Virus record (IMG/VR): IMGVR_UViG_3300025617_000881
Coordinates: 1-29,262 of that record
Source of the DNA: a virus
DNA: 29,262 nt
Direction: 5' to 3' (one strand)
Shown here piece by piece: positions 12,508 through 28,289 of the stretch. A program made the position numbers and the translations under genes. Every line of letters starts with the position of its first letter. Position 1 is the first letter of the stretch. Under the pieces are notes generated by a model, which was given only the letters and a program-made list of their open reading frames with translations, was not told the origin of the DNA and ran no database searches.

Positions 12508-12515
12508 AATATTAT

Positions 12516-13055: not shown

Positions 13056-13074
13056 AAATGAACAGAGAAAAAAC

Positions 13075-15319: not shown

Positions 15320-15321
15320 TC

Positions 15322-15331: not shown

Positions 15332-15334
15332 TAT

Positions 15335-15745: not shown

Positions 15746-15759
15746 AAGGATAATATATC

Positions 15760-16249: not shown

Positions 16250-16278
16250 GGGTGCTCGTCGAAGCACCCTTGTTTTTT
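16248..16278 (+). terminator. Intrinsic terminator
   Basis: A 9-bp stem (AAGGGTGCT/AGCACCCTT), 6-base loop CGTCGA, then G and TTTTTT. It ends the plus unit 15335-16249 and abuts the stop of the convergent permease gene. Confidence 0.9.
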
Positions 16279-17242
16279 ACATTCCTATTTGATTAGGAAC
16301 AATCACATAGTGTATAGCAAGTACCACTCCAACTGATGCGCCTAAGCCAATCATCATCTTAAAGAAGTCTTTGCCTATAAGTGGAAATACTGTACGGAAC
16401 TTTTCCTTGCCTGTTATCGTTGCCATAGCAAGTTCACGTCCACATAGTAGACCCACAAACACCCAAGTTGTACTCATCGGTATGTCATTCAGTTCTTTGA
16501 AGAACCAAAGGATAATCCAATACACAGCATCAATAATAGTTGCTGACCTTACGTATCTTGTGTTGTGTTTTTCCAATACAATCTTTTGTATCTTACCACC
16601 ACCTTCGCGGAACATGAACCCTAAGCCAACAACAAAAACTATGCTGACAAGGATCATTAGGTCCCAGGGTATCTGTCTTGGTAGGAACACAGCGATGTTG
16701 GCCATGTCATGACTCAACCAAGTGAACCATAGGAAGCCTGTGGTTACCCACTGTCCTATTCGCCACCAACGTTTGTGTTCTTCCTTGACAGGTTTTGCTT
16801 CATCAAGTATCTTGCTTACCACAATCCAAATAGCATAAGCCGCCACTGCCGCGACAGCATATCCCATCATACTTTTCATAAGCATTTTTTCTAATACGAA
16901 TGTACTAGCAAAGGCACTTAATACTAAAAAAGACGTACTAACTGGTACGCCTATCCTTGTAAGTATTAGTAGCAAGGCCGGAGCCATTGCGTGATACCAT
17001 TGTATTTCTTGGAATGGAATTTTGTTAAGTCTGCCGTAACTGATGTCTCCACCATTCACATACCAGCCATACCAAAGCGTATATAACAAAACGGCCGAAG
17101 CCGCTCCCCACATAACTTTCCAATTGAATCTCTCATTGTTTGATGCTATCCATGTACCGAGAGTTTGTACACTATCATTTGCGATAACTGCGTATCCTGC
17201 GAAAAGGAAGCCAACAGCCATCCATAGGGTGAGTGCGTCCAT
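16277..17242 (-). CDS. PiT/Pho4-family inorganic phosphate permease
   Basis: 321 aa integral membrane protein with about nine or ten hydrophobic segments. The N-terminal half carries AGYAVIANDSVQTLGTWIAS, where A21-N22-D23 matches the PiT G-A-N-D-x-x-x signature, and IGVPVSTSFLVLSAF, matching the G-x-P-V-S-T loop. The second half has LSHDMANIAVFLP as the internal repeat signature and IPMSTTWVFVGLL as the second P-x-S-T-T loop. PiT proteins import phosphate with H+ or Na+. The start at 17240-17242 has AGGAG 8 bases upstream. A Pho-box-like site lies at 17353-17370. This would be an unusual phage auxiliary gene for phosphate uptake. Confidence 0.8.
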   Translation of the reverse strand: MDALTLWMAVGFLFAGYAVIANDSVQTLGTWIASNNERFNWKVMWGAASAVLLYTLWYGWYVNGGDISYGRLNKIPFQEIQWYHAMAPALLLILTRIGVPVSTSFLVLSAFASTFVLEKMLMKSMMGYAVAAVAAYAIWIVVSKILDEAKPVKEEHKRWWRIGQWVTTGFLWFTWLSHDMANIAVFLPRQIPWDLMILVSIVFVVGLGFMFREGGGKIQKIVLEKHNTRYVRSATIIDAVYWIILWFFKELNDIPMSTTWVFVGLLCGRELAMATITGKEKFRTVFPLIGKDFFKMMIGLGASVGVVLAIHYVIVPNQIGM

Positions 17243-17335
17243 TATTGTTTCTCCTCTGCTTGCCGTCTTTACCACGGCGCTCACTTACTAAGACAGGACT
17301 CGACGTTGTCCTGCTGGAACACGATTGTTCGAAAT

Positions 17336-17370
17336 TATTTAGTGAATAGAAGATTACAGTTTTGTTACAG
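17336..17370 (-). promoter_or_regulatory. Pho-box-like promoter of the phosphate permease
   Basis: Minus strand CTGTAAC-AAAA-CTGTAAT (17353-17370) fits the 7+4+7 layout of the PhoB box (CTGTCAT-AWAW-CTGTCAY), with C-T-G-T and A kept in both repeats. A TAAATA -10-like element (17336-17341) follows 11 bases downstream, the spacing usual for PhoB-activated promoters. It lies 94 bases upstream of the permease ATG. Confidence 0.6.
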
Positions 17371-17373
17371 TGA

Positions 17374-17400
17374 CAAAAAAAGCACCCGAAGGTGCTTTTT
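17374..17400 (-). terminator. Bidirectional UUCG-loop terminator
   Basis: On the minus strand AAAAGCACC-TTCG-GGTGCTTTTTTT: a 9-bp stem with a UUCG tetraloop and T-run, typical of T4-like terminators. It ends the exported-protein unit (17417-17942) just before the Pho-box-like promoter; the plus strand also has a T-run. Confidence 0.9.
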
Positions 17401-17416
17401 GTTTACAACTCGCAGT

Positions 17417-17707
17417 TTACTTTGCTTCTGCTGGAAACTCGTAATTGTGTGGATAGTAGTATGGACGATACTCTGTGCCGTTACCACTCATTGAAGTGTT
17501 GTTGTAGCCCGTGCCTTTAAAGTCACCTGCGGTGCGACCTTTACCTGAGAACGACATAGTGAATGTTGCTTCACCCTCTGCGTTGCCATTGCCCGTTACT
17601 TCACCACGGCCGTCATTTACAAATGCTCCGTTGGTTGCGCCATCATTAAAGAAAGCGAATGCTGTTGTTGCGTTTAACGCTAATGCTAATGCGATAATTT
17701 TTTTCAT
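17417..17707 (-). CDS. Small secreted Gly/Asn-rich protein
   Basis: 96 aa. Signal peptide MKKIIALALALNATTAFA, cleavage likely after AFA. The mature part is low in charge and rich in G, N, T and F (FNDGATNGAFVNDGRGEVTG, NTSMSGNGTEYRPYYYPHNY), somewhat like small sulfur-globule or surface proteins; that likeness is weak. Ribosome site GAGGAG upstream. It starts one base after the stop of the preceding exported-protein gene and ends at a strong terminator, so the two form one unit. Confidence 0.7.
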   Translation of the reverse strand: MKKIIALALALNATTAFAFFNDGATNGAFVNDGRGEVTGNGNAEGEATFTMSFSGKGRTAGDFKGTGYNNTSMSGNGTEYRPYYYPHNYEFPAEAK

Positions 17708-17708
17708 T

Positions 17709-17942
17709 TTAAATCTCCTCGTTTTGCTTAAATTGAATTTTCATATCAGTTAGATATGGATCACAACCTGGTCCTTCAAGACGGTTTGCGAGCCACATTT
17801 CAAAGTCATCCTTGTCTGTAAAAGTGCGAGTAAACTCTACACTCTTGTTAGGCAATTCCCTGTTGAATGTTACTACAACTTCGCCTGCCATCACTGGCTG
17901 TACTGCTCCTAAAAATAAAACTACTGCTAATATCTTTTTCAT
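17709..17942 (-). CDS. Small secreted protein
   Basis: 77 aa from ATG 17940-17942, chosen over an in-frame TTG 12 bases upstream because GGAG is 7 bases before it. Signal peptide MKKILAVVLFLGAVQPVMA, cleavage after VMA. The mature domain is short and polar (EVVVTFNRELPNKSVEFTRT, DPYLTDMKIQF) with one cysteine. Function unknown. It follows a leader with a terminator-like hairpin (17966-18014). Confidence 0.7.
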   Translation of the reverse strand: MKKILAVVLFLGAVQPVMAGEVVVTFNRELPNKSVEFTRTFTDKDDFEMWLANRLEGPGCDPYLTDMKIQFKQNEEI

Positions 17943-17965
17943 TGGATTCTCCAAATTTTAGTCAT

Positions 17966-18014
17966 AAAAAAAGGCGACCTGCTGTAGCCTTTAGCATCGC
18001 TACATGGTTCGCCT
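17966..18014 (-). terminator. Terminator-like hairpin in the leader of the secreted-protein unit
   Basis: Minus strand: AGGCGA/TCGCCT outer stem extended by ACC/GGT after a bulge, an inner TGTAGC/GCTACA stem, then seven T. It lies between the promoter at 18055-18082 and the ATG at 17942, so it could attenuate that transcript. It could also simply stop read-through from upstream. Confidence 0.7.
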
Positions 18015-18054
18015 ACCGATTGTGTATTACTGTCTATTAGTAAACAATAATATT

Positions 18055-18082
18055 ATTATACAATTATTTATGAATTTGTCAA
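18055..18082 (-). promoter_or_regulatory. Sigma70-like promoter for the secreted-protein unit
   Basis: Minus strand: TTGACA (18077-18082), 16-base spacer, TATAAT (18055-18060), both perfect hexamers. Expected start near 18047. Confidence 0.8.
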
Positions 18083-18140
18083 CACTGATTTTCCAAACAA
18101 GAGCAGTTTTATCACAGAAAGTTTTTATGGGTATATAAAA

Positions 18141-18287
18141 TTATTTTATTAGGGTGTTGTAGTGATGCAGTCTCTGTTGTAATAGTTCGCGAGCCACGGG
18201 GTCACGCTCACGCTTCAACTGTTCAATTATCTGCTTTTGGATCTCACGAGGAGTTTGCTTACGCTTTTTGTTATGTTTATGTTTCAT
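18141..18287 (-). CDS. Very small basic protein (48 aa)
   Basis: Reads MKHKHNKKRKQTPREIQKQI and continues as a charged helix (EQLKRERDPVARELLQQRLHHYN) to TAA at 18141-18143. Regular amphipathic composition and position in a run of small minus genes support it. There is no clear ribosome site: the start lies 8 bases after a hairpin (18295-18317) that would occlude the GGGG. Function unknown. Confidence 0.5.
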   Translation of the reverse strand: MKHKHNKKRKQTPREIQKQIIEQLKRERDPVARELLQQRLHHYNTLIK

Positions 18288-18294
18288 TATGTTG

Positions 18295-18317
18295 TGTAGG
18301 GGAATTGCACCCCTACA
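18295..18317 (-). other. Stem-loop between two small genes
   Basis: Perfect 8-bp stem TGTAGGGG/CCCCTACA with a 7-base loop, no T-run. It lies just downstream of the 18328-18522 gene and just upstream of the 18287 start, so it may stabilise RNA or control the downstream start. Confidence 0.6.
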
Positions 18318-18327
18318 GTATTACGTG

Positions 18328-18522
18328 CTACCAGTTATTGGTAGATTTAGTACTCAGATGGCCTAAGATTTTATCTTTGTTAGGACCATGTTTTACTACA
18401 TACCCAGAAGTACCATTGGCATTCGCTTCAACCTCTTGACGAGCTCTCCACAATTCCATTTCCTTCTTTTTACGGGTTTGTTGCTCACTGTACTGCTTGA
18501 GCATAAATGAGTGTCTATCCAT
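18328..18522 (-). CDS. Small charged unknown protein (64 aa)
   Basis: Starts MDRHSFMLKQYSEQQTRKKK with a strong AGGAGG ribosome site 6 bases upstream. N-terminal half is a charged helix; C-terminal half is polar (GTSGYVVKHGPNKDKILGHL). No family recognised. Belongs to the series of small minus-strand genes 18141-19005. Confidence 0.6.
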   Translation of the reverse strand: MDRHSFMLKQYSEQQTRKKKEMELWRARQEVEANANGTSGYVVKHGPNKDKILGHLSTKSTNNW

Positions 18523-18601
18523 GTCACCCTCCTAGTTAAAGTTAGGTGCGTTCCTTCGGTATTACCTACTTCCGGCCCTTATGGCTGAACGATACAGTTA
18601 C

Positions 18602-18739
18602 TTATACAAAGAACACAGCAAACACAATAATGCCCACGGCACAGCCTATGCCAAGCCATGAAAGCCATATGCGAGGTTGTTCTAGATCCTCATTTGGGTC
18701 TAGTCCCATGTCTTCTAGGTCTTTTGGATCAAGTTCCAT
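18602..18739 (-). CDS. Very small single-span membrane protein (45 aa)
   Basis: Reads MELDPKDLEDMGLDPNEDLE, then QPRIWLSWLG and a hydrophobic segment IGCAVGIIVFAVFFV to the stop at 18602. GGAG lies 6 bases before the ATG (18737-18739). Acidic N-terminus and a C-terminal membrane anchor suggest a tail-anchored inner-membrane peptide. A plus-strand frame across this region is the mirror image and is not supported. Confidence 0.6.
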   Translation of the reverse strand: MELDPKDLEDMGLDPNEDLEQPRIWLSWLGIGCAVGIIVFAVFFV

Positions 18740-18822
18740 CTGCTTCTCCGTACAAGTTAACAATAATATTTAATACAGCCACACACACCACAAGCCAAAA
18801 TAGAGCGAAGCGACTGCGCTAG

Positions 18823-18842
18823 AAAAAAAGCGCGAAGCGCCA
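18823..18842 (-). terminator. Intrinsic terminator
   Basis: Minus strand GCGC-TTC-GCGC stem-loop followed by seven T (18823-18829). It lies 22 bases after the stop of the gene at 18865-19005. Confidence 0.65.
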
Positions 18843-18864
18843 GCGGTAGCGATAGATTGTGTGA

Positions 18865-19005
18865 TCAATCCTTGGCCGAGTCGTTATCTGATCGTATTAC
18901 TCGTTCTTCTCTATTCCATGCTACTAACAGTAGTACTATAAACCCGTATATTGCGCCAAGCCATAGGAACGCTAGCAGTAAGTGTCCGAGTGGGGTATCA
19001 AACAT
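18865..19005 (-). CDS. Very small membrane protein (46 aa)
   Basis: Reads MFDTPLGHLLLAFLWLGAIY then GFIVLLLVAWNREERVIRSD, ending TGA at 18865-18867. One or two hydrophobic stretches (8-29) and a charged C-terminus. It has no ribosome site; the promoter at 19014-19042 would start RNA only a few bases before the ATG, so it may be leaderless. Function unknown. Confidence 0.5.
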   Translation of the reverse strand: MFDTPLGHLLLAFLWLGAIYGFIVLLLVAWNREERVIRSDNDSAKD

Positions 19006-19013
19006 ATAAGCAT

Positions 19014-19042
19014 AATATACAGTCACAACACATAAGTAGCAA
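19014..19042 (-). promoter_or_regulatory. Weak early-type promoter on the minus strand
   Basis: TTGCTA (19037-19042), 17-base spacer, TATATT (19014-19019) followed by ATGC, like the -10 region of the plus-strand early promoters. The -35 box is 4/6. Confidence 0.4.
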
Positions 19043-19078
19043 CTAAAAAATTAACCAAAATAACAAAGAGAGTATAGG

Positions 19079-19279
19079 ATGGCAGGATATAACAGTAATC
19101 AAAAGCAACGTAGCAAACAGCAGAAACGTGTGTGGAATGGCAGAGCAGTCGTGCCCACACGCTATTACAGTAGTGAACACAAAGGTACTATGTGTGGTAG
19201 TGTAGATGGGGAGTTGGTTAGAGACAGTCGAGGAACTGTGCTACCATGGAGCAGTATACCCTACGGTACTGTAGAGTAA
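19079..19279 (+). CDS. Small basic unknown protein (66 aa)
   Basis: Starts MAGYNSNQKQRSKQQKRVWN; a basic, glutamine-rich N-terminus followed by GTMCGSVDGELVRDSRGTVL. Weak ribosome site GAGAG. It is the first gene of the plus-strand early arm and is followed by a hairpin of the GACCCC family at 19298. No family recognised. Confidence 0.55.
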   Translation: MAGYNSNQKQRSKQQKRVWNGRAVVPTRYYSSEHKGTMCGSVDGELVRDSRGTVLPWSSIPYGTVE

Positions 19280-19297
19280 AAGCACTATATAGGGCAT

Positions 19298-19320
19298 GAC
19301 CCCGCTGTGCGTATAGGGGA
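19298..19320 (+). repeat. GACCCCGCTGT hairpin repeat, copy 1
   Basis: GACCCCGCTGT then GGGG 8 bases later; CCCC/GGGG stem. It follows the stop of the 66-aa gene by 18 bases. See copies at 19535, 19761 and 27584. Confidence 0.7.
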
Positions 19321-19563
19321 GATAGAGTGAAAAGTATTTTTGGCATGTCGGATAAACCATGCGATTTTGAATCGTTTGGCCCTTAGTATGCTGTATCAAA
19401 CTCGGCTCATATGACTCAAATTAGGAGTTTTTTCCACTCAAGAAACTCCTAAAATGAATCAAAAAACTCCTTTTTTTGGGTCAAAAAAGTCAATTATTTG
19501 AATCGTTTGGCACAGTATTCACTATACACACTGTGACCCCGCTGTAAGGGGCGTGTTCTACAC
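19321..19563. other. Gene-free structured region with direct repeat and competing hairpins
   Basis: No convincing gene. A 15-base direct repeat TTTGAATCGTTTGGC is at 19366-19380 and 19497-19511. Between them, TTAGGAGTTT (19421-19430) can pair with AAACTCCTAA (19443-19452), or AGGAGTTTTTT (19423-19433) with AAAAAACTCCT (19461-19471), the latter followed by six T. Three tiny frames of about 13-15 codons occur here but lack ribosome sites. Could be an attenuator, a small RNA, or an origin-like element. Confidence 0.6.
19535..19553 (+). repeat. GACCCCGCTGT hairpin repeat, copy 2
   Basis: GACCCC-GCTGTAA-GGGG: a 4-5 bp stem with 7-base loop, immediately before the promoter at 19564. Confidence 0.7.
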
Positions 19564-19592
19564 TTGACAACTACAGTCTTATAGTGTATAGT
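19564..19592 (+). promoter_or_regulatory. Early promoter before the lipoprotein gene
   Basis: TTGACA (19564-19569), 17-base spacer, TATAGT (19587-19592), then GTATGCATAC. Confidence 0.85.
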
Positions 19593-19620
19593 GTATGCAT
19601 ACTGTAAGGGAGAATCAACT

Positions 19621-19761
19621 ATGCGTATACTACTAGTGCTAACACTACTGAGTACACTAACAGCATGTGGTCATCACAGTGTGGATCGATCATATCTACT
19701 AGAGCAACAACCAGCACAGTGCCCCTATGATGACGTAACAAATACCTATCATTGCTACTAG
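19621..19761 (+). CDS. Small lipoprotein (46 aa)
   Basis: Starts MRILLVLTLLSTLTACGHHS: a short signal peptide ending in the lipobox L-T-A-C with C16 as the lipidated residue. The mature 31 residues are polar with two more cysteines (CPYDDVTNTYHCY). AGGGAG lies 8 bases before the ATG, and a strong promoter is at 19564-19592. In size and lipobox it resembles Rz1-type outer spanins or small exclusion lipoproteins, but expression from an early-type promoter argues against a lysis role. The stop runs into hairpin repeat copy 3. Confidence 0.75.
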   Translation: MRILLVLTLLSTLTACGHHSVDRSYLLEQQPAQCPYDDVTNTYHCY

Positions 19762-19778
19762 ACCCCGCTGTAAGGGGT
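19761..19778 (+). repeat. GACCCCGCTGT hairpin repeat, copy 3
   Basis: GACCCC-GCTGTAA-GGGGT; its G is the last base of the lipoprotein stop codon. Nearly identical to copy 2. Confidence 0.7.
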
Positions 19779-19791
19779 GGGCTGTATGATC

Positions 19792-19803
19792 TATGCATGC
19801 ATA
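19792..19803. other. Perfect 12-bp palindrome TATGCATGCATA
   Basis: Contains the TATGCAT element found next to the -10 box of several early promoters but has no TTGACA at the right distance on either strand. Confidence 0.5.
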
Positions 19804-19830
19804 ATATACGGGTCATACACTATATAGGGG

Positions 19831-19859
19831 TTGACATAGCAATCAAATGGGTCTATACT
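19831..19859 (+). promoter_or_regulatory. Early promoter
   Basis: GGGG-TTGACA (19831-19836), 17-base spacer, TATACT (19854-19859). Drives the gene at 19897. Confidence 0.85.
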
Positions 19860-19896
19860 GTATAAACAATCAGAGAACAGGCATAAAGGCACTTAA

Positions 19897-20256
19897 ATGG
19901 CATCAAGTTTAGATCAACGAATCGTAAAGGCTTTCAATCGGATTAAGAGTGGTTCAAGTACCAATCAAGACATCAAAGACCTACTAACAGGTCATTTCAT
20001 ACAGGAGCAACAGAGGGTGACTCTACCATATGAGAGAATGCGTGCACTGAGGAGTGCCGAACAGTTACTATGTGATCTATTGGATCCCAAGGTCACACCC
20101 AGGGTGCCACGGGCAGTTAGACAGCGAGCTAGAAGTGTGCTCCGACATTGGCCCATGGGATCACAACTGGATCTAATAGCAGAAAGGGTGCCAGAGCTCT
20201 ACAATACTTGTGAGGATCCTCTGTATACCGCTGTCAAGGGATACAGAAAAGACTAA
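19897..20256 (+). CDS. Unknown 119-aa early protein
   Basis: Helical and basic: MASSLDQRIVKAFNRIKSGS, then ERMRALRSAEQLLCDLL and VPRAVRQRARSVLRHWP, with an acidic C-terminus. I have the impression that such SLDQRIVKAFNRIKSG proteins recur in T4-like marine phages, without known function. AAAGG lies 9 bases before the ATG. Transcription may continue into the tRNA-Leu gene 16 bases downstream. It contains a GGAGTGCC motif (20051-20058). Confidence 0.65.
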   Translation: MASSLDQRIVKAFNRIKSGSSTNQDIKDLLTGHFIQEQQRVTLPYERMRALRSAEQLLCDLLDPKVTPRVPRAVRQRARSVLRHWPMGSQLDLIAERVPELYNTCEDPLYTAVKGYRKD

Positions 20257-20272
20257 GGTTTTCAAACGGTTA

Positions 20273-20356
20273 GCCCGCATGGTGGAATAGGTAGACACAA
20301 GGGACTTAAAATCCCTCGCTATGTGCGTCCCAGTTCGAGTCTGGGTGCGGGCACCA
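20273..20356 (+). tRNA. tRNA-Leu, anticodon UAA
   Basis: Acceptor GCCCGCA/TGCGGGC with discriminator A and encoded CCA; D arm with TGGTGGAATAGGTAGACAC; anticodon stem AGGGA/TCCCT with loop CTTAAAA, anticodon TAA at 20307-20309; long variable arm CGCTATGTGCG typical of class II tRNAs; T arm CCCAGTTCGAGTCTGGG. Reads UUA/UUG. It has no promoter of its own and is probably co-transcribed with the gene at 19897. Confidence 0.95.
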
Positions 20357-20371
20357 TAACACTCAAGTACT

Positions 20372-20391
20372 ACAGCGGAGTGCCACGCTGT
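20372..20391 (+). other. Hairpin after tRNA-Leu presenting GAGTGCC in its loop
   Basis: ACAGCG/CGCTGT 6-bp stem with loop GAGTGCCA; GGAGTGCC spans 20377-20384. No T-run. May mark the 3' end of the tRNA transcript or a processing site. Confidence 0.55.
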
Positions 20392-20444
20392 CAGCACCAG
20401 ATCCTTCACGCCAAATCTTTTTCCAAAAAATCTCCAAAAAGTGG

Positions 20445-20472
20445 TTGACATTTTGGATACTGATGCTATTAT
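20445..20472 (+). promoter_or_regulatory. Early promoter
   Basis: TTGACA (20445-20450), 16-base spacer, TATTAT (20467-20472) then ATGCATAC. Drives 20503-21082. Confidence 0.85.
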
Positions 20473-20502
20473 ATGCATACAGTAAACAAAAGGAGCGAGC
20501 AT

Positions 20503-20763
20503 ATGAAGCGTAAATTTAGAACAGCATATAACGCACTTAAGAAGATTGGGTGCCCCGTATACGAAGGTGGTTACAACGGTGAGGACACTTTCCGTATTTC
20601 AGGTGAGGATAACTTGGATCATGTGTGGGCAGACTACTACCGGATGAGTGAAGAGGGTGGTTACGTGTTTGGGGTAAGCCCGCGTATTAATAAAGTGCTG
20701 GACAAGCACGGCCTGTTCGCAGAATGGTGTAATCCAGGCGTACTCAATGTTTGGGAGGTGTAG
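20503..20763 (+). CDS. Unknown 86-aa early protein
   Basis: Starts MKRKFRTAYNALKKIGCPVY with AGGAGCGA 5 bases upstream. Contains ISGEDNLDHVWADYYRMSEE and ends LFAEWCNPGVLNVWEV. Basic N-terminus, acidic middle, no recognised domain. Next gene starts two bases after its stop, so translation is coupled. Confidence 0.7.
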   Translation: MKRKFRTAYNALKKIGCPVYEGGYNGEDTFRISGEDNLDHVWADYYRMSEEGGYVFGVSPRINKVLDKHGLFAEWCNPGVLNVWEV

Positions 20764-20764
20764 C

Positions 20765-21082
20765 ATGTACGTAATCTACGAAAAGAGCACTACCTACATC
20801 ATGGGCGGCAAGGGCCGTCCTGATCATCGTGCTGTATACAAGACCATGGGTGCCGCGAAGGCCGCAATCACACGTTGGAGCAAGGCATGGTTTAAGACGG
20901 GTGATCAGTGTCGCGACAACGATCCTGTGTTCCGTTACGCTATTGCTGAATCAGCATATTTTAGCAAGAACATCGAGAAACAGCGTAGGGTAAAGAACAT
21001 GATGACGGGTGCTGAGTTTTCAGAGCCCGTGAACACCCCTGCTTATATGAGCCCCAGCAGAGAGAGCTATTGGAGCATGTAA
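20765..21082 (+). CDS. Unknown 105-aa early protein
   Basis: Starts MYVIYEKSTTYIMGGKGRPD with GGGAGG about 7 bases upstream inside the preceding gene. Contains AVYKTMGAAKAAITRWSKAW and a repeated alternation of basic and aromatic residues, suggesting a small alpha/beta fold. No family recognised. Followed by a new promoter at 21090. Confidence 0.7.
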   Translation: MYVIYEKSTTYIMGGKGRPDHRAVYKTMGAAKAAITRWSKAWFKTGDQCRDNDPVFRYAIAESAYFSKNIEKQRRVKNMMTGAEFSEPVNTPAYMSPSRESYWSM

Positions 21083-21089
21083 TTAGGGG

Positions 21090-21117
21090 TTGACACACCT
21101 GCTGTAGATGCTATAAT
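21090..21117 (+). promoter_or_regulatory. Early promoter
   Basis: GGGG-TTGACA (21090-21095), 16-base spacer, TATAAT (21112-21117) then GCATATA. Confidence 0.9.
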
Positions 21118-21144
21118 GCATATATTAATTAAGAGGAGCGACAC

Positions 21145-21432
21145 ATGAAAACTTACGGAATGTTCAGCACACAGGGCGACGATTTGGTACACACTATTGT
21201 GGAGAGTGCCGTCAAATTGAAGCGCACATTTGGTGACTCAGATGCTCAGGTATGGCAGTGGGCCTACACAGCATTGGTCAAGCTCAGCTATGGCGAGGGC
21301 TTTGGTGAAGCAACTGACACAGCGGTACGTGAAGCTGTATACGGTGCTCTAGAGGACAGCATTGAAGGCTGGAGCATTTCGGATGAAGAATATTGGTTTT
21401 ATGTTGATTCAGGGGTTGACACACACGCATAA
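21145..21432 (+). CDS. Unknown 95-aa early protein
   Basis: Starts MKTYGMFSTQGDDLVHTIVE with GAGGAGCGA upstream. Acidic, helical, with a tryptophan/tyrosine-rich end (EGWSISDEEYWFYVDSG). Its last codons lie inside the next promoter (21416-21444), whose -35 box encodes part of the C-terminus. No family recognised. Confidence 0.7.
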   Translation: MKTYGMFSTQGDDLVHTIVESAVKLKRTFGDSDAQVWQWAYTALVKLSYGEGFGEATDTAVREAVYGALEDSIEGWSISDEEYWFYVDSGVDTHA

Positions 21433-21444
21433 AGATCATATACT
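21416..21444 (+). promoter_or_regulatory. Early promoter overlapping the upstream gene end
   Basis: GGGG-TTGACA (21416-21421), 17-base spacer, TATACT (21439-21444) then GCATATAAT. Confidence 0.88.
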
Positions 21445-21471
21445 GCATATAATAAACAAATAGGAGCGAAC

Positions 21472-22521
21472 ATGATTGAGATTAAAAACGGAGTGTACAA
21501 GATCAGAGGCAACGATACTAGTATGGCAGGATATCGTTTTGAACTTGTAAAAGCATTCACCACAGACAAGCATGGCCAAGGCTATGTTACTGTAGCAGGT
21601 GGATCAGTATACCCACCCAACGCAAATATTCCAGATCGCCCAATACGCATCCGTTGCGAAAGCACAGATGACTATGAGGTGTCTGAACAGAACGTGGAGG
21701 CGGCGGCAGTGCCTGTCACTAAGGCTAGTAAAACCAAAGCAGTTGAAGAGACAGACGAAGAAGTGATTGAACGTCTTCGGGGTCGTTTTAACGTGCTGCA
21801 TGATATGACTCAAGCAGTAAAGGAAGGCAACGTGCGAGCAATGATCGTAACAGGACCTCCAGGCGTTGGTAAGTCTTTTGGCGTAGAAGAGGTGCTAGGC
21901 CGTAATGACATCTTTGACCAGATGGCAGAACGACCTCCCAAGTATGAAGTTGTCAAAGGCGCAATGAGTGCCGTTGGCCTGTATGCTAAACTGTATCAGT
22001 ATGCAGACAAAGGCAACGTTGTGGTGTTTGATGACTGTGACAGTGTACTACTAGATGACCTCTCGCTGAACATCCTTAAGGGTGCGCTGGACACCAGCAA
22101 GCGTAGACGCATTGCGTGGAACACCGATTCAAGTAAACTACGTTCAGAGGGTATTCCAGACAGCTTTGAATTCAATGCTGGTGCTATCTTTATCACCAAC
22201 ATCAAGTTTGAGAACATTCGAAGTAAGAAGCTTCAGGATCACTTGATGGCGCTAGAGTCACGTTGCCATTACATTGATCTACAAATGGATACAGAACGTG
22301 AAAAAGTACTACGTATCAAGCAGATCACACAGGATGGCATGCTGGAACACTACAACTTCCAGAACAACGAGCAAGAAGAGATCATCGACTTTATCATGAC
22401 CAACGTTAAACGACTGCGTGAGCTGAGTTTACGTACAGTGTTGAAGATTGCTGATCTGCGCAAGAGCTTCCCGGGCAACTGGGCTAGCATGGCTGAAGTC
22501 ACTGTGATGAAACGGGGCTAG
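21472..22521 (+). CDS. AAA+ ATPase
   Basis: 349 aa. After a ~110-residue N-terminal region containing a probable linker comes an ATPase core: Walker A G128-PPGVGKS-135, Walker B VVVFDDCD with D187/D188, and a sensor-like AIFITNI segment. The C-terminus is helical. The family acts on protein or nucleic-acid complexes; the exact role is unknown. In this phage it is read early from its own promoter with an AGGAGCGA ribosome site. It is different from the MoxR-type ATPase at 24563. Confidence 0.8.
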   Translation: MIEIKNGVYKIRGNDTSMAGYRFELVKAFTTDKHGQGYVTVAGGSVYPPNANIPDRPIRIRCESTDDYEVSEQNVEAAAVPVTKASKTKAVEETDEEVIERLRGRFNVLHDMTQAVKEGNVRAMIVTGPPGVGKSFGVEEVLGRNDIFDQMAERPPKYEVVKGAMSAVGLYAKLYQYADKGNVVVFDDCDSVLLDDLSLNILKGALDTSKRRRIAWNTDSSKLRSEGIPDSFEFNAGAIFITNIKFENIRSKKLQDHLMALESRCHYIDLQMDTEREKVLRIKQITQDGMLEHYNFQNNEQEEIIDFIMTNVKRLRELSLRTVLKIADLRKSFPGNWASMAEVTVMKRG

Positions 22522-22542
22522 GCAAATTGGACAACCACAGGG

Positions 22543-22570
22543 TTGACATTAACTGTAGATGTGTTATACT
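22543..22570 (+). promoter_or_regulatory. Early promoter
   Basis: GGG-TTGACA (22543-22548), 16-base spacer, TATACT (22565-22570). Confidence 0.85.
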
Positions 22571-22599
22571 AAACACTCATAACTAAGGAGAAGACTGAT

Positions 22600-22884
22600 A
22601 TGAAATATACATTTTCAAAAGACACTAAGACTTTCAAAGTATTCAAAGCTCTGAAAGATGGCGCAACAATTACACCAGCACAGGCTAAGAAGCAGTTCGG
22701 TATTGGTAACATGAGTGCCGAAGCATCACGCATCCGTCAAAACGGATATGCTGTTTATTCAAATACACGCAAGGCATCAAATGGTGTTGTGGTACGTGAA
22801 TACACTATGGGCAACCCTTCACGTGAAGTGGTAGCACTAGGTAATGCTGCAAAAGCAAAAGGTTTGACACTAGAAACTATCTAG
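22600..22884 (+). CDS. Small winged-helix-like protein (94 aa)
   Basis: Starts MKYTFSKDTKTFKVFKALKD. The stretch GATITPAQAKKQFGIGNMSAEASRIRQNGYAVYSN, read in parts, looks like a helix-turn-helix followed by a wing, a pattern seen in small phage DNA-binding proteins. AAGGAGAAG ribosome site. Followed by two intrinsic terminators, so it is the end of a transcription unit. Its DNA-binding role is inferred from the pattern only. Confidence 0.65.
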   Translation: MKYTFSKDTKTFKVFKALKDGATITPAQAKKQFGIGNMSAEASRIRQNGYAVYSNTRKASNGVVVREYTMGNPSREVVALGNAAKAKGLTLETI

Positions 22885-22936
22885 TTCAGCGAGCTACAAA
22901 ACCCAAACCCGATTCGCTCCCGGTAAGCGGTTTTGG

Positions 22937-22967
22937 ATACCCAGGCATAAGACCTGGGTATTTTTTT
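22937..22967 (+). terminator. Intrinsic terminator
   Basis: 9-bp stem ATACCCAGG/CCTGGGTAT, 7-base loop, seven T. Located 53 bases after the stop at 22884. Confidence 0.92.
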
Positions 22968-22999
22968 GGCTCTAGGGCCGGCACTCCTAGGCACTCTGG

Positions 23000-23034
23000 T
23001 TCGCCTTGATACATGCTAAAGGCGAATCTTTTTT
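23000..23034 (+). terminator. Second intrinsic terminator
   Basis: 8-bp stem TTCGCCTT/AAGGCGAA with 11-base loop, then TCTTTTTT. The stretch between the two terminators carries the only two minus-strand GAGTGCC motifs (22980-22987 and 22990-22996). Confidence 0.8.
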
Positions 23035-23045
23035 CCAAAAAGGGG

Positions 23046-23073
23046 TTGACACACAGAGCTATGAGTGTATACT
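23046..23073 (+). promoter_or_regulatory. Early promoter
   Basis: GGGG-TTGACA (23046-23051), 16-base spacer, TATACT (23068-23073) then GCATATA. Confidence 0.88.
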
Positions 23074-23102
23074 GCATATATAAGTTAACAAAAGGAGCGA
23101 AT

Positions 23103-23786
23103 ATGTCATACACCGTACAAGAACCCACCCTTCGCGATATTGCTTTCGAAGGCAAAGGTAGCATCAAAATACTGATCCACGGCCTAGAACAATGGCGTGA
23201 CATGGCTGAACTGAGACTCGACATCAAGCGTCAGAATGGCGATGAAGGCCCAGAATGGATATACACCCTTGAAACTCCCACGTATAGCGTGAAGCAGGTC
23301 AATCCTGGTGGTTGGTTGAATTTAGGCTTTGCCCTCAAAGAAGCAGGCCGCAAGATCCAGCAATATGTTGAGCTTGAAGACAAGATGGAACTGATCTTCC
23401 AAGAAGGCGAAACTTTCCGTAGAGCAGAGGCGATTGCTGAGATGAAGCGCCAGCAAGAAGCTCGTGATGCTGACCCGGCGGTTGGTATGAAGTTGGCCAA
23501 GCGTATTGTGAATGAGATGCGTCGAATCTCAAGTGAGGAATTGACTAGGCATGACTCTAGTGGCATCGTCAAGGTTTACAAGCGTGGCACAGACAATCAT
23601 CGTGATATTTCAGTCACCAAGTCATGGCGTGGACTGATACTGTTCCAAGAGCGTTATAGCCGATTGAGCCGTAAGACTGTTGAAGAGCTTATTGCGGACT
23701 CTAGCATGGAGAAATTGGATATCAGCGGTATTGGTATGCCGGATCCAAGGCTTATGAACTTTATGCTTACCAAGAGCAAAAAATAG
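23103..23786 (+). CDS. Unknown 227-aa early protein
   Basis: Start at ATG 23103 (MSYTVQEPTLRDIAFEGKGS), with AGGAGCGA upstream; a longer frame to 23013 runs through the promoter and is rejected. Middle part is a long charged helix (LEDKMELIFQEGETFRRAEA), possibly a coiled coil. C-terminal part includes YKRGTDNHRDISVTKSWRG. No family recognised. Confidence 0.7.
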   Translation: MSYTVQEPTLRDIAFEGKGSIKILIHGLEQWRDMAELRLDIKRQNGDEGPEWIYTLETPTYSVKQVNPGGWLNLGFALKEAGRKIQQYVELEDKMELIFQEGETFRRAEAIAEMKRQQEARDADPAVGMKLAKRIVNEMRRISSEELTRHDSSGIVKVYKRGTDNHRDISVTKSWRGLILFQERYSRLSRKTVEELIADSSMEKLDISGIGMPDPRLMNFMLTKSKK

Positions 23787-23787
23787 G

Positions 23788-23816
23788 TTGACATTTTGGA
23801 CATAGTATCATATACT
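23788..23816 (+). promoter_or_regulatory. Early promoter
   Basis: TTGACA (23788-23793), 17-base spacer, TATACT (23811-23816) then ATGCACATAG. Confidence 0.85.
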
Positions 23817-23846
23817 ATGCACATAGTTAGGAATTAGGAGCGACAC

Positions 23847-24488
23847 ATGAACTTTACCGCAGACCACGTTTGGGCATTGGCAGTTATCGCAGACCGTATG
23901 AACGGGGGCTATAACAAGAACCCTGTCGGACATTGGGACAACGAAACCGACAAGTGGGTTGAAGACAAGCCTGCGAACAAGGCCATGGTCAAGCAGTGGT
24001 TGCGTGAAGAAAGTGTAACTCCTACTGAAGAAGATATCAAGCAAGGCCAGGAGTGCCGGGCATACTTCAAGGGCTTCGTAATGAAAGAGCTCAGCGGTAA
24101 GATCAACGACTTTGAGCGTACCGCATTGAAGGTAAGTGCCAAGGATCACTTCGGCAGTAAAGATATGTTGGAGTTCGCTATCATATCATGCTTACCACAA
24201 GCCATGCGTAAGGACAAGGATCGTGCTGATATGTCACGAGAGATCTTTAGTTCAACACAGTTGGCTGGACAGGTAGGCGATAAGGTACAGGGCGAAGTAA
24301 CCATTATGAAGTGCCACTATTCACAGAACTACGAAAAGTTCCGGATCACGGCGCAACTAGGCGACAGTTTCATTGACTTCTGGTACAGCAAGGAGTGCCA
24401 GGTCGGTGACACGATGTCTATCAAGGGTAAGATCAAAACCCAGAGAGCAGATAAAACCACTCAGTTAAATTATGTCAAAAAAAGTTAA
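23847..24488 (+). CDS. Unknown 213-aa protein with possible C-terminal OB fold
   Basis: Starts MNFTADHVWALAVIADRMNG, with AGGAGCGA upstream. The N-terminal ~120 residues are helical and unassigned. The C-terminal ~75 residues (GDKVQGEVTIMKCHYSQNYE, FRITAQLGDSFIDFWYS, VGDTMSIKGKIKTQ) alternate like a five-stranded OB fold, as in single-strand nucleic-acid-binding proteins. That assignment is structural guesswork. It carries two GGAGTGCC motifs. Confidence 0.65.
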   Translation: MNFTADHVWALAVIADRMNGGYNKNPVGHWDNETDKWVEDKPANKAMVKQWLREESVTPTEEDIKQGQECRAYFKGFVMKELSGKINDFERTALKVSAKDHFGSKDMLEFAIISCLPQAMRKDKDRADMSREIFSSTQLAGQVGDKVQGEVTIMKCHYSQNYEKFRITAQLGDSFIDFWYSKECQVGDTMSIKGKIKTQRADKTTQLNYVKKS

Positions 24489-24496
24489 TTTAGGGG

Positions 24497-24524
24497 TTGA
24501 CATTATTCTATAAGAGTGTATAGT
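24497..24524 (+). promoter_or_regulatory. Early promoter
   Basis: GGGG-TTGACA (24497-24502), 16-base spacer, TATAGT (24519-24524) then ATGCATATAG. Confidence 0.88.
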
Positions 24525-24562
24525 ATGCATATAGTTAGGAATTAAACAAAGAGAGGTCAAAA

Positions 24563-25642
24563 ATGAGCGATATAGCAATCCGTCAAGTAGGTCCTAAAGC
24601 GGCCATCAAAGCAGTTACCAAAGCGATCCTGAAGAGACGCCCATTGTTTTTGTGGGGTGCCCCAGGCATTGGTAAGTCTGAAATTATGCAGTTTATCGGT
24701 AATACTACCGACCGTGAGGTAATTGACATTCGTCTTCCATTGTGGGAGCCGACTGATGTCAAAGGTATGCCTTATTACAATCCACAGAGCGGTAAGATGG
24801 AGTGGGCTCCACCAGTTGAACTTCCAACTGACCCAGAGTCGACAGCAATCATCTTCTTAGATGAATTGAATGCGGCTCCTCCGGCTGTTCAGGCCGCGGC
24901 TTATCAACTTGTTCTTAACCGTAGGGTTGGAACATATAAACTGCCAGCAGGCGTGGACATTGTGGCCGCTGGTAACCGTGACAGCGACAGAGGCGTGACT
25001 TATCGTATGCCTAAGCCGTTGGCTAACCGTTTCCTACACTTGGAAATGAAGCCAGACTTTGATGACTGGTTTGATTGGGCTACCCTTAACAAGGTTCATG
25101 AAGATGTCGTAGGTTACTTAGGCTTTGCCAAGCAGGACCTGTTTGACTTTGATCCTAAGAGCTCAAGCCATGCTTTTGCTACACCGCGTTCTTGGAGTTT
25201 CGTGAGCGACTTGCTCGACGATGACGACCTTGACAGCGAAACATTGATGGACCTAGTGTCCGGCGCTGTCGGCGATGGCTTGGCTGTGAAGTTTATGGCG
25301 CATCGTAAGATTGCTGGTAAACTGCCTAAGGCAGATGACATCCTTGATGGTAAGGTTAAGGACCTTGAGATTAAGGAAGTGAGTGCCATGTATTCACTGA
25401 CTGTTTCACTATGCTACGAGTTGAAAGACCGTGCTGAGAAGAAGGCTAAAGAGTGGGACAAGCAGGCGGATCGTTTCTTCCGTTATATGATGGATAACTT
25501 CCCAACTGAATTGGTTGTAATGGGTGCCAAGACTGCCCTTACAAACTACAACTTGCCGCTAGATGCTAACAAGATGGAATCCTTTGACGAGTTCCATCAG
25601 CGTTTTGGCAAATATGTTGTGAACGCGATGGAAAATTCCTAA
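24563..25642 (+). CDS. MoxR-type AAA+ ATPase
   Basis: 359 aa. Walker A G32-APGIGKS-39 and Walker B IIFLDELNAAPP with D100/E101, then VAAGNRDSD as sensor 1 and PLANRFLHLEM with the arginine finger, the layout of MoxR/AAA_5 ATPases. Such ATPases work with a von Willebrand A-domain partner to insert metals or remodel protein complexes. That partner is the next gene, 125 bases downstream with its own promoter. Ribosome site AGAGAGG. Confidence 0.85.
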   Translation: MSDIAIRQVGPKAAIKAVTKAILKRRPLFLWGAPGIGKSEIMQFIGNTTDREVIDIRLPLWEPTDVKGMPYYNPQSGKMEWAPPVELPTDPESTAIIFLDELNAAPPAVQAAAYQLVLNRRVGTYKLPAGVDIVAAGNRDSDRGVTYRMPKPLANRFLHLEMKPDFDDWFDWATLNKVHEDVVGYLGFAKQDLFDFDPKSSSHAFATPRSWSFVSDLLDDDDLDSETLMDLVSGAVGDGLAVKFMAHRKIAGKLPKADDILDGKVKDLEIKEVSAMYSLTVSLCYELKDRAEKKAKEWDKQADRFFRYMMDNFPTELVVMGAKTALTNYNLPLDANKMESFDEFHQRFGKYVVNAMENS

Positions 25643-25665
25643 CTGACCTCTTCCGTCGCACAACA

Positions 25666-25697
25666 GGGAGAGTGCCGATTTGACCCGGCATTCTCCC
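25666..25697 (+). other. 12-bp hairpin between the MoxR and VWA genes
   Basis: GGGAGAGTGCCG pairs with CGGCATTCTCCC (one G-T pair) around an 8-base loop. No T-run follows. The 5' arm holds a GAGTGCC motif (25670-25676). Possible factor-dependent terminator or processing site. Confidence 0.7.
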
Positions 25698-25709
25698 ACC
25701 CTTTAGGGG

Positions 25710-25738
25710 TTGACAAACAGATCATTTGAACATATAAT
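25710..25738 (+). promoter_or_regulatory. Early promoter
   Basis: GGGG-TTGACA (25710-25715), 17-base spacer, TATAAT (25733-25738). Confidence 0.9.
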
Positions 25739-25766
25739 ATATAATATAAACAGTTAGGAGAGCGAT

Positions 25767-26981
25767 ATGGACCCAATTTTAGAAAAACTTACAACGGCGC
25801 GGATCGGCCTGCTTCTTAAGACTCCATTCTTTGGCAACATGGCTACACGAATGAAGATCATAGACGCAACTGATTGGTGCCCGACAGCGGCAACTAATGG
25901 CCGTGACTTTTATTATAACCGTGACTTTGTTGAAAAGCTCTCCACAAAGAAATTAGAATTCCTGTTCGCACACGAAATTGGGCATTGTGTTTTTGATCAC
26001 TTTGGCAGAGCAGGTAGCCGTAACCGTCAACTGTGCAACATCGCACAGGACTATGCCATCAACCAAATCCTTGTAGACGAACGCATTGGTGAGAAGATTA
26101 CCGAAGTTGACATCTGCTTAGATTCCAAGTATCGTGGATTGGCATGGGAAGAGATTTATGATCAACTGTTCAGCGAAGCAGAAAAGAACTCAATGTCACT
26201 TGACGAGCTCATGGATAAACTAGGCGATGTGTTAGACGAGCATATCAACGAAGACTCTACCGGTCCTGGCAAGGATGGCGATAAAGACGGTAAAGGTCCA
26301 GGTCCTATGAGCAAAGAAGAGCGTCAGAAGATTAAGGACGAGATCAAAGAAGCAATGATCCAGTCAGCCGCGGCGGCAGGTGCTGGCAAAGTGCCTGGTG
26401 CTATTCAGCGATTGATTAAAGACTTAACAGAGCCTAAGATGGACTGGCGTGAAGTGCTACAGATGAACATCCAAAGCATCATCAAGAACGATTACAGTTT
26501 TCAGCGTCCTAATCGTAAGAGCCAACACAGTGGCGCATACCTTCCTGGTATGAAGAACGATGAGACTATTGATGTCGCTATTGCTATTGACATGAGTGGC
26601 TCAATTGGATTAGAGGATGCTGGTATCTTCCTTAGCGAAGTAAAAGGTATTATGGATCAGTATGTTGACTTCAACATTAAGATTTGGAGTTTCGATACAG
26701 ATGTCTACAACTATGCTGAGTTCAGTGCTGATGGCAACGATGACATTACAACCTACGAACCCAAAGGCGGTGGCGGCACAGACTTTATGTGCAACTGGAA
26801 CTTTATGAAAGAAGAAGGCATTGAGCCTAAGAAGTTCATCATGTTCACAGACGGCTACCCATGGGATAGTTGGGGTGACGAAGACTATTGCGATACATTG
26901 TTTATCGTAAAAGGTTCCAATAACAAATCGCCGTTTGGAGAGACAGTAGGATACGATGAAAAGTTTTCTAAAGCGGCTTAG
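25767..26981 (+). CDS. VWA-domain protein with metallopeptidase-like N-terminus (MoxR partner)
   Basis: 404 aa. N-terminal zinc-protease-like motif FAHEIGHCVFDH (H69-E-I-G-H73). A glycine/aspartate-rich linker (GPGKDGDKDGKGPGPMSKEE) separates it from a C-terminal von Willebrand A-like domain with a full metal-ion site: D275-M-S277-G-S279, T338 in GGGGTDF, and D362 in FTDGYP. This is the architecture of DUF2201-type partners of MoxR ATPases. It may act as an early host-modifying chaperone or protease complex. Ribosome site AGGAG. Overlaps the next gene by 26 bases. Confidence 0.82.
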   Translation: MDPILEKLTTARIGLLLKTPFFGNMATRMKIIDATDWCPTAATNGRDFYYNRDFVEKLSTKKLEFLFAHEIGHCVFDHFGRAGSRNRQLCNIAQDYAINQILVDERIGEKITEVDICLDSKYRGLAWEEIYDQLFSEAEKNSMSLDELMDKLGDVLDEHINEDSTGPGKDGDKDGKGPGPMSKEERQKIKDEIKEAMIQSAAAAGAGKVPGAIQRLIKDLTEPKMDWREVLQMNIQSIIKNDYSFQRPNRKSQHSGAYLPGMKNDETIDVAIAIDMSGSIGLEDAGIFLSEVKGIMDQYVDFNIKIWSFDTDVYNYAEFSADGNDDITTYEPKGGGGTDFMCNWNFMKEEGIEPKKFIMFTDGYPWDSWGDEDYCDTLFIVKGSNNKSPFGETVGYDEKFSKAA

Positions 26982-27582
26982 AGATTCAGTTGACGTTCTG
27001 CGGGGGAGGAGTGCCTCTGTCAACCTAGATTGCTTTGCTTCGAGTCAGACATTATCGAAGCAATGGTTGATAGAGAAGTTGGAGGAGTGCCTAGACGGCA
27101 TGACAACTCCCCCGCAGGGTTGGAGGATATGGATACTGGGAGGTTGGTATAGTCTTACCAACTTTATCCTAAGAACAAGAGCAGTCATCGATGTTGAGCA
27201 AGTAAGAAGTTTCGATTGTGATCCTAACTGTGAGCCTATCGCAGATAAGATCAACAAACTATGGGAATGGCAGGAGTGGCAGTTCAAAGCAGACACCTGC
27301 GATGTTAACAAACTAAAATATGAGAACGGAGTGCCTCATGTGGTTATTAATACCTCCGTTGAGCACATCGAAGGCGACCAATGGTACAAGAATATCCCTA
27401 ATGGTACCGTGGTAGTGCTACAAGCTAACGATCAAATACACGATGATCATATTTGGCTATGCTCGAGTCCAAAAGACCTACTAGAACGTTTTGGTGTGAC
27501 AGAGTGCCTATATGAGGGCAGTCTAGAGTTCAATTATCCAGATAATGTTTGGAGTAGGCATATGATCATTGCTATCAAGTAG
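26956..27582 (+). CDS. SAM-dependent methyltransferase-like protein
   Basis: 208 aa. WRIWILGGWYSLTNFILRTR holds a G-G-W turn at the place of SAM motif I, followed by EQVRSFDCDPNCEPIADKIN with an acidic residue at the end of strand 2 (D-C-D). Later PHVVINTSVEHIEGDQWYKN is a motif IV-like segment. The motifs are divergent and the target cannot be named. The frame starts inside the end of the VWA gene (26-base overlap), so translation is coupled. It carries four GAGTGCC motifs, the densest cluster. Confidence 0.6.
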   Translation: MKSFLKRLRDSVDVLRGRSASVNLDCFASSQTLSKQWLIEKLEECLDGMTTPPQGWRIWILGGWYSLTNFILRTRAVIDVEQVRSFDCDPNCEPIADKINKLWEWQEWQFKADTCDVNKLKYENGVPHVVINTSVEHIEGDQWYKNIPNGTVVVLQANDQIHDDHIWLCSSPKDLLERFGVTECLYEGSLEFNYPDNVWSRHMIIAIK

Positions 27583-27583
27583 T

Positions 27584-27606
27584 GACCCCGCTGTACGTGT
27601 AGGGGG
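27584..27606 (+). repeat. GACCCCGCTGT hairpin repeat, copy 4
   Basis: GACCCCGCTGT then GGGGG 7 bases later, starting two bases after the methyltransferase-like stop codon. Confidence 0.7.
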
Positions 27607-27616
27607 ATCTTTCTGG

Positions 27617-27645
27617 TTGACACAATCTATCTTTGAATGTATATT
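27617..27645 (+). promoter_or_regulatory. Early promoter
   Basis: TTGACA (27617-27622), 17-base spacer, TATATT (27640-27645) then ATGCATAC. Confidence 0.85.
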
Positions 27646-27675
27646 ATGCATACAATGAAAACTAAGGAGCGAATG

Positions 27676-27945
27676 ATGAACAACGTACAACAGGCTATTA
27701 CAGCAATCCACTCTATCCAAACTAACGATGAGCTTAATCAGATCATTGAAGCGGTCAAGCTCAAGCGTCAGTATCTGTCTAAGCAGGCAGTTAAGAGCTT
27801 TAGGGTTGGAGACAAGATCCAATTCACTAACAAAGGTGGTATCCCAGTAGGCGGCACAGTCAAGAAAGTCAATATCAAATATGTGGTATGTGACACGGCC
27901 ATTGGAACCTACAGGGTGCCGGCAACTATGTTGGAGAAGGTATAA
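27676..27945 (+). CDS. Small KOW/SH3-like protein (89 aa)
   Basis: Start chosen at the second ATG of an ATGATG pair because its distance to AGGAGCGA is better. N-terminal helix (VQQAITAIHSIQTNDELNQI) then a beta-rich part FRVGDKIQFTNKGGIPVGGT and VKKVNIKYVVCDTAIGTYRV, which looks like a KOW or SH3-like barrel as in small nucleic-acid-binding phage proteins. Its stop overlaps the next start (TAATG). Confidence 0.7.
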   Translation: MNNVQQAITAIHSIQTNDELNQIIEAVKLKRQYLSKQAVKSFRVGDKIQFTNKGGIPVGGTVKKVNIKYVVCDTAIGTYRVPATMLEKV

Positions 27946-28274
27946 TGGAATTTGGATTCATTGAACTGGCTCTCCTAGTATGGAGTGCCTTTGAGGCCGG
28001 TAAGTGGTGGGCGAATTACAACACCAAAAAGAATATGAAGGAGCTCCTGGATGACCTAGGAGTGCCCCGGGATGAGCAACTGAACTTACAGCAAAAGACT
28101 CGAGATATGATCATGGGTCCTAAAGTAATCATCTTAACAAAGATGGGAGACATGTACTTCGCACACGACGAAGACGAAGTGTTTTTAGGGCAGGACAAAG
28201 ACAGAGAAGAGCTGTTCAAATACATCGCTAAAACATGTGGCGAAGGTAGATACGAAGTGGTTGACAAGACTTGA
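27945..28274 (+). CDS. Unknown 109-aa protein with hydrophobic N-terminus
   Basis: Starts MEFGFIELALLVWSAFEAGK, a likely membrane-associated helix, then a basic linker (NYNTKKNMKELL) and a soluble C-terminal part (VIILTKMGDMYFAHDEDEVF). Translation coupled to the preceding gene. Two GGAGTGCC motifs (27982, 28059) lie within it, in different frames. The next promoter overlaps its end. Confidence 0.65.
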   Translation: MEFGFIELALLVWSAFEAGKWWANYNTKKNMKELLDDLGVPRDEQLNLQQKTRDMIMGPKVIILTKMGDMYFAHDEDEVFLGQDKDREELFKYIAKTCGEGRYEVVDKT

Positions 28275-28289
28275 GTTTGAATGTATACT
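28261..28289 (+). promoter_or_regulatory. Early promoter overlapping the upstream gene end
   Basis: TTGACA (28261-28266), 17-base spacer, TATACT (28284-28289). Confidence 0.85.

Follow-up and report, generated by a model that had tools for sequence, protein, structure and literature searches.

In mycobacteriophage L5 and other Cluster A phages, whose repressors belong to the gp71 family, stoperators are numerous asymmetric sites with one main orientation relative to transcription, present in promoters and also downstream of them, whether within genes or in short intergenic regions (PMC9283540, PMC6550527). Two further systems invite comparison: the RegB ribonuclease of phage T4, which cuts mostly in the 5' leader or Shine-Dalgarno region of early messenger RNA (mRNA) (PMC3014915), and I-TevI, a GIY-YIG endonuclease that acts as an autorepressor at an operator it hardly cuts (PMC2988022). 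In this work we analysed a viral stretch of 29,262 nucleotides (positions 1 to 29,262 of IMG/VR record IMGVR_UViG_3300025617_000881, hereafter the window), in which a short word, GRGTGCC (R being A or G), is repeated through an early gene module. The phages of the clade that carries it are uncultured and are distant relatives of the jumbo phage PA5oct. From sequence comparison, we tentatively favour a polar operator or stoperator-like role for GRGTGCC, as an asymmetric DNA-binding site for a regulator of the early module, most likely one encoded by the phage itself. As in the L5 stoperators, the word is asymmetric, repeated, oriented with transcription and found in promoters and downstream of them. 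It differs in being 7 bp long, whereas the stoperator has 13 bp, in lying mostly in coding sequence and in one early module only, and in having, near promoters, a palindrome as its partner at a helically phased distance; moreover, no sign of lysogeny was seen for the phages that carry it.

Enrichment of GRGTGCC in one early module

The motif is clade-wide, specific to one module, oriented with transcription and held inside genes by synonymous codon choice. In the window, GAGTGCC occurs 17 times (15 on the plus and 2 on the minus strand), all within 20-28 kb and none in positions 1-20,000. A previous sequence-only reading had listed these copies, and our recount agreed with it in every coordinate and strand, in the empty first 20,000 positions and in the ten copies of the full word GGAGTGCC (9 plus, 1 minus). 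GGGTGCC (7 plus and 0 minus copies), which that reading had called related, is the same motif, with G-R-G-T-G-C-C as its core and flanks that are not fixed; on the plus strand, GRGTGCC occurs 22 times in 8 kb. Dinucleotide shuffles of the window yielded 2.1 GAGTGCC copies on average and never more than 7, against the 17 observed, and by a Markov measure this is the most over-represented heptamer of the region. When synonymous codons of the early genes were shuffled, the excess held for GAGTGCC (13 vs 1.3 expected, maximum 5), GGAGTGCC (8 vs 0.5, maximum 3), GGGTGCC (7 vs 0.5, maximum 4) and GRGTGCC as a whole (20 vs 1.85, maximum 8 in 1000 shuffles). All 20 in-gene copies are in sense orientation, and all three reading frames are used. 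The codon-shuffle null is imperfect, since a sister clade already scores 2.3-fold over it, and the true excess is therefore somewhat below these raw ratios.

The density of the motif is also conserved in relatives, as 48 of 58 dereplicated loci were individually enriched (p<=0.05). The observation thus withstood the two checks that the sequence-only reading had named as able to refute it, the comparison with a codon null and that of density in related genomes. Against the synonymous-codon null, GAGTGCC was the top 7-mer in the plus-strand open reading frames (ORFs) of the 58 relatives (147 vs 24) and GGGTGCC reached 138 vs 29, while the counts per frame (227/29/26 vs 33/11/6 in the null) were enriched in every frame. 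GAGTGCC was found in 317 plus and 80 minus copies, most of the latter representing one conserved element. Among the variants of the first base, HAGTGCC exceeded expectation 2.5-3.8 fold, and for HGGTGCC, with A or T in first place, the ratio was about 1. The sites themselves turn over, and within the MoxR gene their positions mostly differ between relatives. The Walker A loop of MoxR reads W-G-P in 80 of 81 aligned sequences and W-G-A in the window. In aligned relatives that lack the system, the serine codon at a site may change even its family (from AGT to TCA). The reverse complement was depleted in sense strands to an unremarkable degree (13-19th percentile), no replacement motif was seen in loci without GRGTGCC, and the homologous 41 kb of PA5oct contain two plus copies (one GAGTGCC and one GGGTGCC) and are not enriched. 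A literature search on the motif returned only unrelated papers, none of them on GRGTGCC.

The confinement to one module is pronounced. Within 3 kb on either side of MoxR, except just before this gene, there are about 1-1.8 sites per kb. The density drops to roughly 0.5 per kb as far as +7 kb and is near background elsewhere; early promoters extend from -6 to beyond +10 kb on the same scale. Clustering in approximately 10-14 kb holds even in contigs of 186 and 353 kb. The longer one has 12 sites in one 15-kb module vs 31 in its other 338 kb, and 10 minus-strand sites in 15 kb, the 99.9th percentile at random being 7.

Promoter-proximal copies and the palindrome

The motif is also retained in untranscribed promoter DNA, where it is helically phased to a promoter palindrome. 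In 62 of 80 relatives, a single GGCACTC follows an intrinsic terminator or hairpin and precedes the next GGTTGACA promoter, with a position peak 11-20 nt upstream of the -35 box; because it lies after a terminator and upstream of -35, this conserved minus element is normally untranscribed. Plus copies are absent from the promoter spacer down to the start codon (none lies 10-79 nt after the start of the -35 box), with the exception of TTGACAAGRGTGCC, a word found in the spacer of nine distinct promoters in which R alternates and neighbouring bases vary. Intergenic copies of both orientations lie 5' of the palindrome TGTKGYN6RCMACA. Where motif and palindrome lay within 28 bp, 71 of 72 contexts had a gap of 4-7 or 15-17 bp, as did 16 of 16 contexts subsequently obtained from other loci; the two gap classes differ by one helical turn. 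In the promoter of a GIY-YIG-like gene of the module, several relatives have a gap of 16, and L021 has one of 5. Most palindromes (85% vs 6% expected) lie at most 60 nt upstream of a -35 box, the commonest gap being 9-10 nt.

This palindrome is probably the operator of a dimeric regulator. CRP/FNR-type palindromes have the form TGTGA-N6-TCACA, and TGTKGY-N6-RCMACA has the same half-site spacing and the same location just upstream of -35; its half-site letters, however, are different, and it is absent from the window. In about 31% of the palindromes the half-sites are unlike, which argues against an RNA hairpin. Local hairpins of the type TGCC...GGCA after each site showed a weak excess only, and predicted RNA accessibility was not raised at the sites (0.297 unpaired vs 0.330 in matched heptamers). 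The untranscribed minus element, the spacer copies, the phased palindrome gaps and the unraised accessibility together favour recognition of GRGTGCC as double-stranded DNA. Examples of the palindrome in relatives are found at 11141 of L033, 14391 of L020 and 16867 of L018. In L105 and L107, the GAGTGCC-palindrome composite element occurs more than once, in some cases with the identical palindrome, and it is possibly expanding there.

Of the three roles suggested by the sequence-only reading, a binding site for a phage protein is the one that best fits the untranscribed promoter sites and the palindrome phasing, while the binding itself is what we infer. We hypothesize that a protein would bind GRGTGCC as a single asymmetric unit, accompanied near promoters by a dimer on the palindrome and on its own within genes, and, as a further step, that the bound protein would impede RNA polymerase in one direction. 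Initiation would then be damped at promoters and elongation within genes, and the early block might be turned down as infection advances, comparable to the action of the L5 repressor at stoperators. If this is true, polar in-gene silencer sites, known from one mycobacteriophage group, would have arisen independently in a large and abundant group of uncultured phages, where synonymous codon choice places them in coding sequence and promoter palindromes accompany them. Early-gene control in these phages would then follow a simple code that can be tested, and the case would caution that regulatory sites can be contained in phage codon choice.

Several observations weigh against such a polar operator. 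No binder was recognised, and a repressor of the gp71 family was not seen among the annotated early genes, most of the genome lying outside the window. The winged helix-turn-helix (HTH) protein of the module was considered as the binder and rejected, as its recognition helix is equally conserved in L055, which lacks the motif. The sense bias alone would fit an RNA signal too; all module genes run one way, so that DNA strand and direction of transcription are inseparable. The early promoters at -6 to -3 kb have no motif, and one site per transcription unit is rejected by the counts (201 empty units vs 189 expected). The palindrome, which the window lacks, is missing from in-gene sites in general, and no partner half-sites were found beside the in-gene copies. 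Finally, many gaps of the 15-17 bp class derive from a single locus in which the palindrome also serves as a terminator stem, and this class is well supported by two loci only.

Alternative explanations and the GIY-YIG-like gene

The alternative that survives best, although we consider it unlikely, is that GRGUGCC acts in mRNA as the cleavage or binding site of a phage ribonuclease or RNA-binding protein that marks early transcripts. It would account for the sense orientation, the restriction to early genes and the selection at synonymous positions in all frames, and many intergenic copies do precede a potential hairpin. Nevertheless, the copies in promoter spacers and in terminator-promoter gaps are normally untranscribed, the sites are no more accessible than matched heptamers, leaders and Shine-Dalgarno stretches are free of them, and unlike half-sites spoil many of the hairpins. 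Early-gene restriction and the GGAG present in part of the copies recall T4 RegB, from which this system differs in the equal use of GGGTGCC, in the site-free ribosome-binding regions and in the untranscribed location of some sites. RegB-like processing, as proposed in the sequence-only reading, is thus unlikely, because the core is GRGTGCC and not GGAG, is absent from the 5' leader and Shine-Dalgarno region, and shows no raised accessibility.

Next comes the possibility, doubtful in our opinion, that GRGTGCC is the recognition or nicking site of a 106-aa GIY-YIG-like protein, whose gene in relatives lies close to the left end of the module and which would act as a strand-specific nickase or, like I-TevI, as a non-cleaving repressor. 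Gene and motif were compared in 55 scorable relatives and on a MoxR protein tree. Enrichment was found in 46 of the 51 loci with the gene and in 0 of the 4 without it (Fisher 0.0004), with pooled counts of 272 vs 48 expected and 4 vs 3.5, respectively; 71 further gene-bearing loci gave 223 vs 42, and GIY-negative relatives, mostly of the sister clade, 49 vs 21. Losses of the gene are scattered on the MoxR tree, the best tree requiring 4 gene changes, and three well-supported independent pairs nearly always agree in direction, a number too small for significance alone. The family residues (Y, YIG, R, E, N) are invariant in 37 sequences and the order of secondary structure elements fits the beta-beta-alpha-alpha-beta-alpha core, but the Pfam match (12.9 bits) is below the cut-off and Foldseek found no fold match in the PDB. 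As for I-TevI, which is the precedent for such a role (PMC2988022), the likeness is that the gene tracks the motif and has composite elements in its promoter region in several relatives; unlike I-TevI, the protein has one domain, and dozens of sites take the place of the single operator. The motif is strongest in the window, yet no GIY-YIG-like gene was found within its 29 kb. In addition, L025, L039, L054, L066 and L067 carry the gene without clear enrichment, whereas L028 lacks it and still has two composite elements. A cutting enzyme is also expected to deplete its sites in its own genome; when a word depleted in GIY-positive phages was sought, as expected of a nuclease target, the signal was swamped by composition differences. 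An improbable further version is that a phage protein of the GIY-YIG family turned polar silencer, its asymmetric 7-bp word having multiplied through one early module by synonymous change, and that the module would be shut down by roadblock or strand-specific nicking. If true, the silencing system would derive from a nuclease and not from a repressor.

We regard as very unlikely that a phage small RNA containing GGCACUC pairs with GRGUGCC in early mRNAs, with A-U or G-U at R. The wobble does fit R, HAGTGCC is mildly enriched and HGGTGCC is not, and the conserved plus-strand GGCACTC adjoins a 3' untranslated region (UTR) whose hairpin loop complements the phage Shine-Dalgarno. However, GGCACTC sits past the terminator, and four loci with GGAACTC keep GAGTGCC targets (16) and not GAGTTCC (3), in a small test on closely related loci. 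The asymmetry between seed and target is unspecific, since GAGTGCC is the almost exclusive form among strong intergenic copies on the plus strand, too. An antisense small RNA, attractive because the minus copy complements the sites, was rejected for its position past the terminator and the failed covariation.

Codon-context or mutational bias without function is equally improbable: the sister clade, without the GIY-YIG-like gene, does exceed the codon null 2.3-fold, but the signal is a sharp 7-mer confined to a module, conserved and phased in non-coding DNA, and absent from L010, L028, L055 and L056 of the same clade (4 vs 3.5 expected). Chi sites are over-represented across whole genomes, with a polarity linked to replication. 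A Chi-like or replication-directing polar DNA signal, as put forward in the sequence-only reading, or a packaging-directing one would suit a short, asymmetric and strand-biased word but is very unlikely for one that is restricted to a single 10-14 kb module, even in the 186- and 353-kb contigs, and is phased with promoter elements.

Copies in the window and neighbouring elements

The close relatives of the window are uncultured contigs; among cultured phages, the PA5oct-like jumbo phages come nearest, with protein identities of only 51% for MoxR and 45% for VWA. The module encodes small early proteins, an AAA ATPase (PHROG 1250), the winged-HTH protein, MoxR and a DUF2201/VWA protein, and its promoters are strong and of the sigma70 type, forming an array (19831..28289, plus strand) of mostly GGTTGACA...TATAAT-like elements that drives it. 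On the plus strand, the first copy, GAGTGCC at 20052..20058, is read as R-S-A in the gene at 19897-20256 and is followed by GGGTGCC at 20102..20108 and 20186..20192 (both R-V-P). The intergenic GAGTGCC at 20378..20384 is flanked by the inverted repeats ACAGCG/CGCTGT, and the -35 at 20445 follows about 60 bp downstream; the placement of this copy in a hairpin loop, ACAGCG-GAGTGCCA-CGCTGT, had been described correctly, as had that of the 25670 copy in a hairpin arm. GGGTGCC follows at 20548..20554 (L-G-A) and 20848..20854 (M-G-A), and GAGTGCC at 21204..21210 (E-S-A), at 21966..21972 in the AAA ATPase gene and at 22713..22719 in the winged-HTH gene (both M-S-A). The latter gene (22600..22884, plus strand; HTH_39-like, PHROG 4973) encodes a candidate DNA-binding regulator and lies directly upstream of the conserved minus element, whose counterpart in the window is a tandem pair of minus-strand GAGTGCC, 10 bp apart (22980..22996), flanked by two intrinsic terminators and followed by the -35 at 23046.

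Further along the plus strand, GAGTGCC is found at 24051..24057 (E-C-R) and 24393..24399 (E-C-Q), GGGTGCC at 24655..24661 (W-G-A, in the Walker A loop of the MoxR gene), GAGTGCC at 25381..25387 (V-S-A) and GGGTGCC at 25522..25528 (M-G-A). After the MoxR gene, the intergenic GAGTGCC at 25670..25676, 33 bp upstream of the -35 at 25710, has an inverted partner, GGCATTC, downstream with a 10-bp gap between them, and its location matches the GAGTGCC-palindrome element of relatives. The remaining copies, also plus, are GAGTGCC at 27009..27015 (R-S-A), 27085..27091 (E-C-L), 27329..27335 (G-V-P), 27502..27508 (E-C-L), 27983..27989 (W-S-A) and 28060..28066 (G-V-P), and GGGTGCC at 27914..27920 (Q-G-A).

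The 3' UTR that follows the winged-HTH gene contains a conserved hairpin, CCG-ATTCGCTCC-CGG (22905-22935), followed by a terminator; in relatives it is conserved about 0.9 kb upstream of MoxR. Its loop is the exact complement of the Shine-Dalgarno stretch of the module, GGAGCGAAT, and the hairpin is thus a candidate for a 3'-UTR-derived anti-Shine-Dalgarno small RNA. The word TTCGCTCC has 80 copies across the 58 loci vs about 4 expected, and L053 has a second hairpin with an identical loop.

Other elements of the window were also observed. The intergenic word GACCCCGCTG is repeated at 19298, 19537, 19762 and 27584, mostly followed by a GGGG with which it could form a hairpin, and the related GGCCCCGCTGC is common in relatives. 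A glutamine riboswitch (RF01739, 56 bits) was found at 18545-18593 on the minus strand. By eye, the ORFs at 508-1710, 3164-4528 (minus) and 11061-11678 resemble 5-aminolevulinate synthase, ATP-dependent DNA ligase and ClpP, respectively. Finally, a stretch coding for MYDNRWIYTLPESHDSYVWDHVRERFEGTKNVKN is doubled in tandem at about 13520-13720, covering the end of ORF 12952-13626 and the start of ORF 13619-13840, which reflects either a recent tandem duplication or an assembly error.

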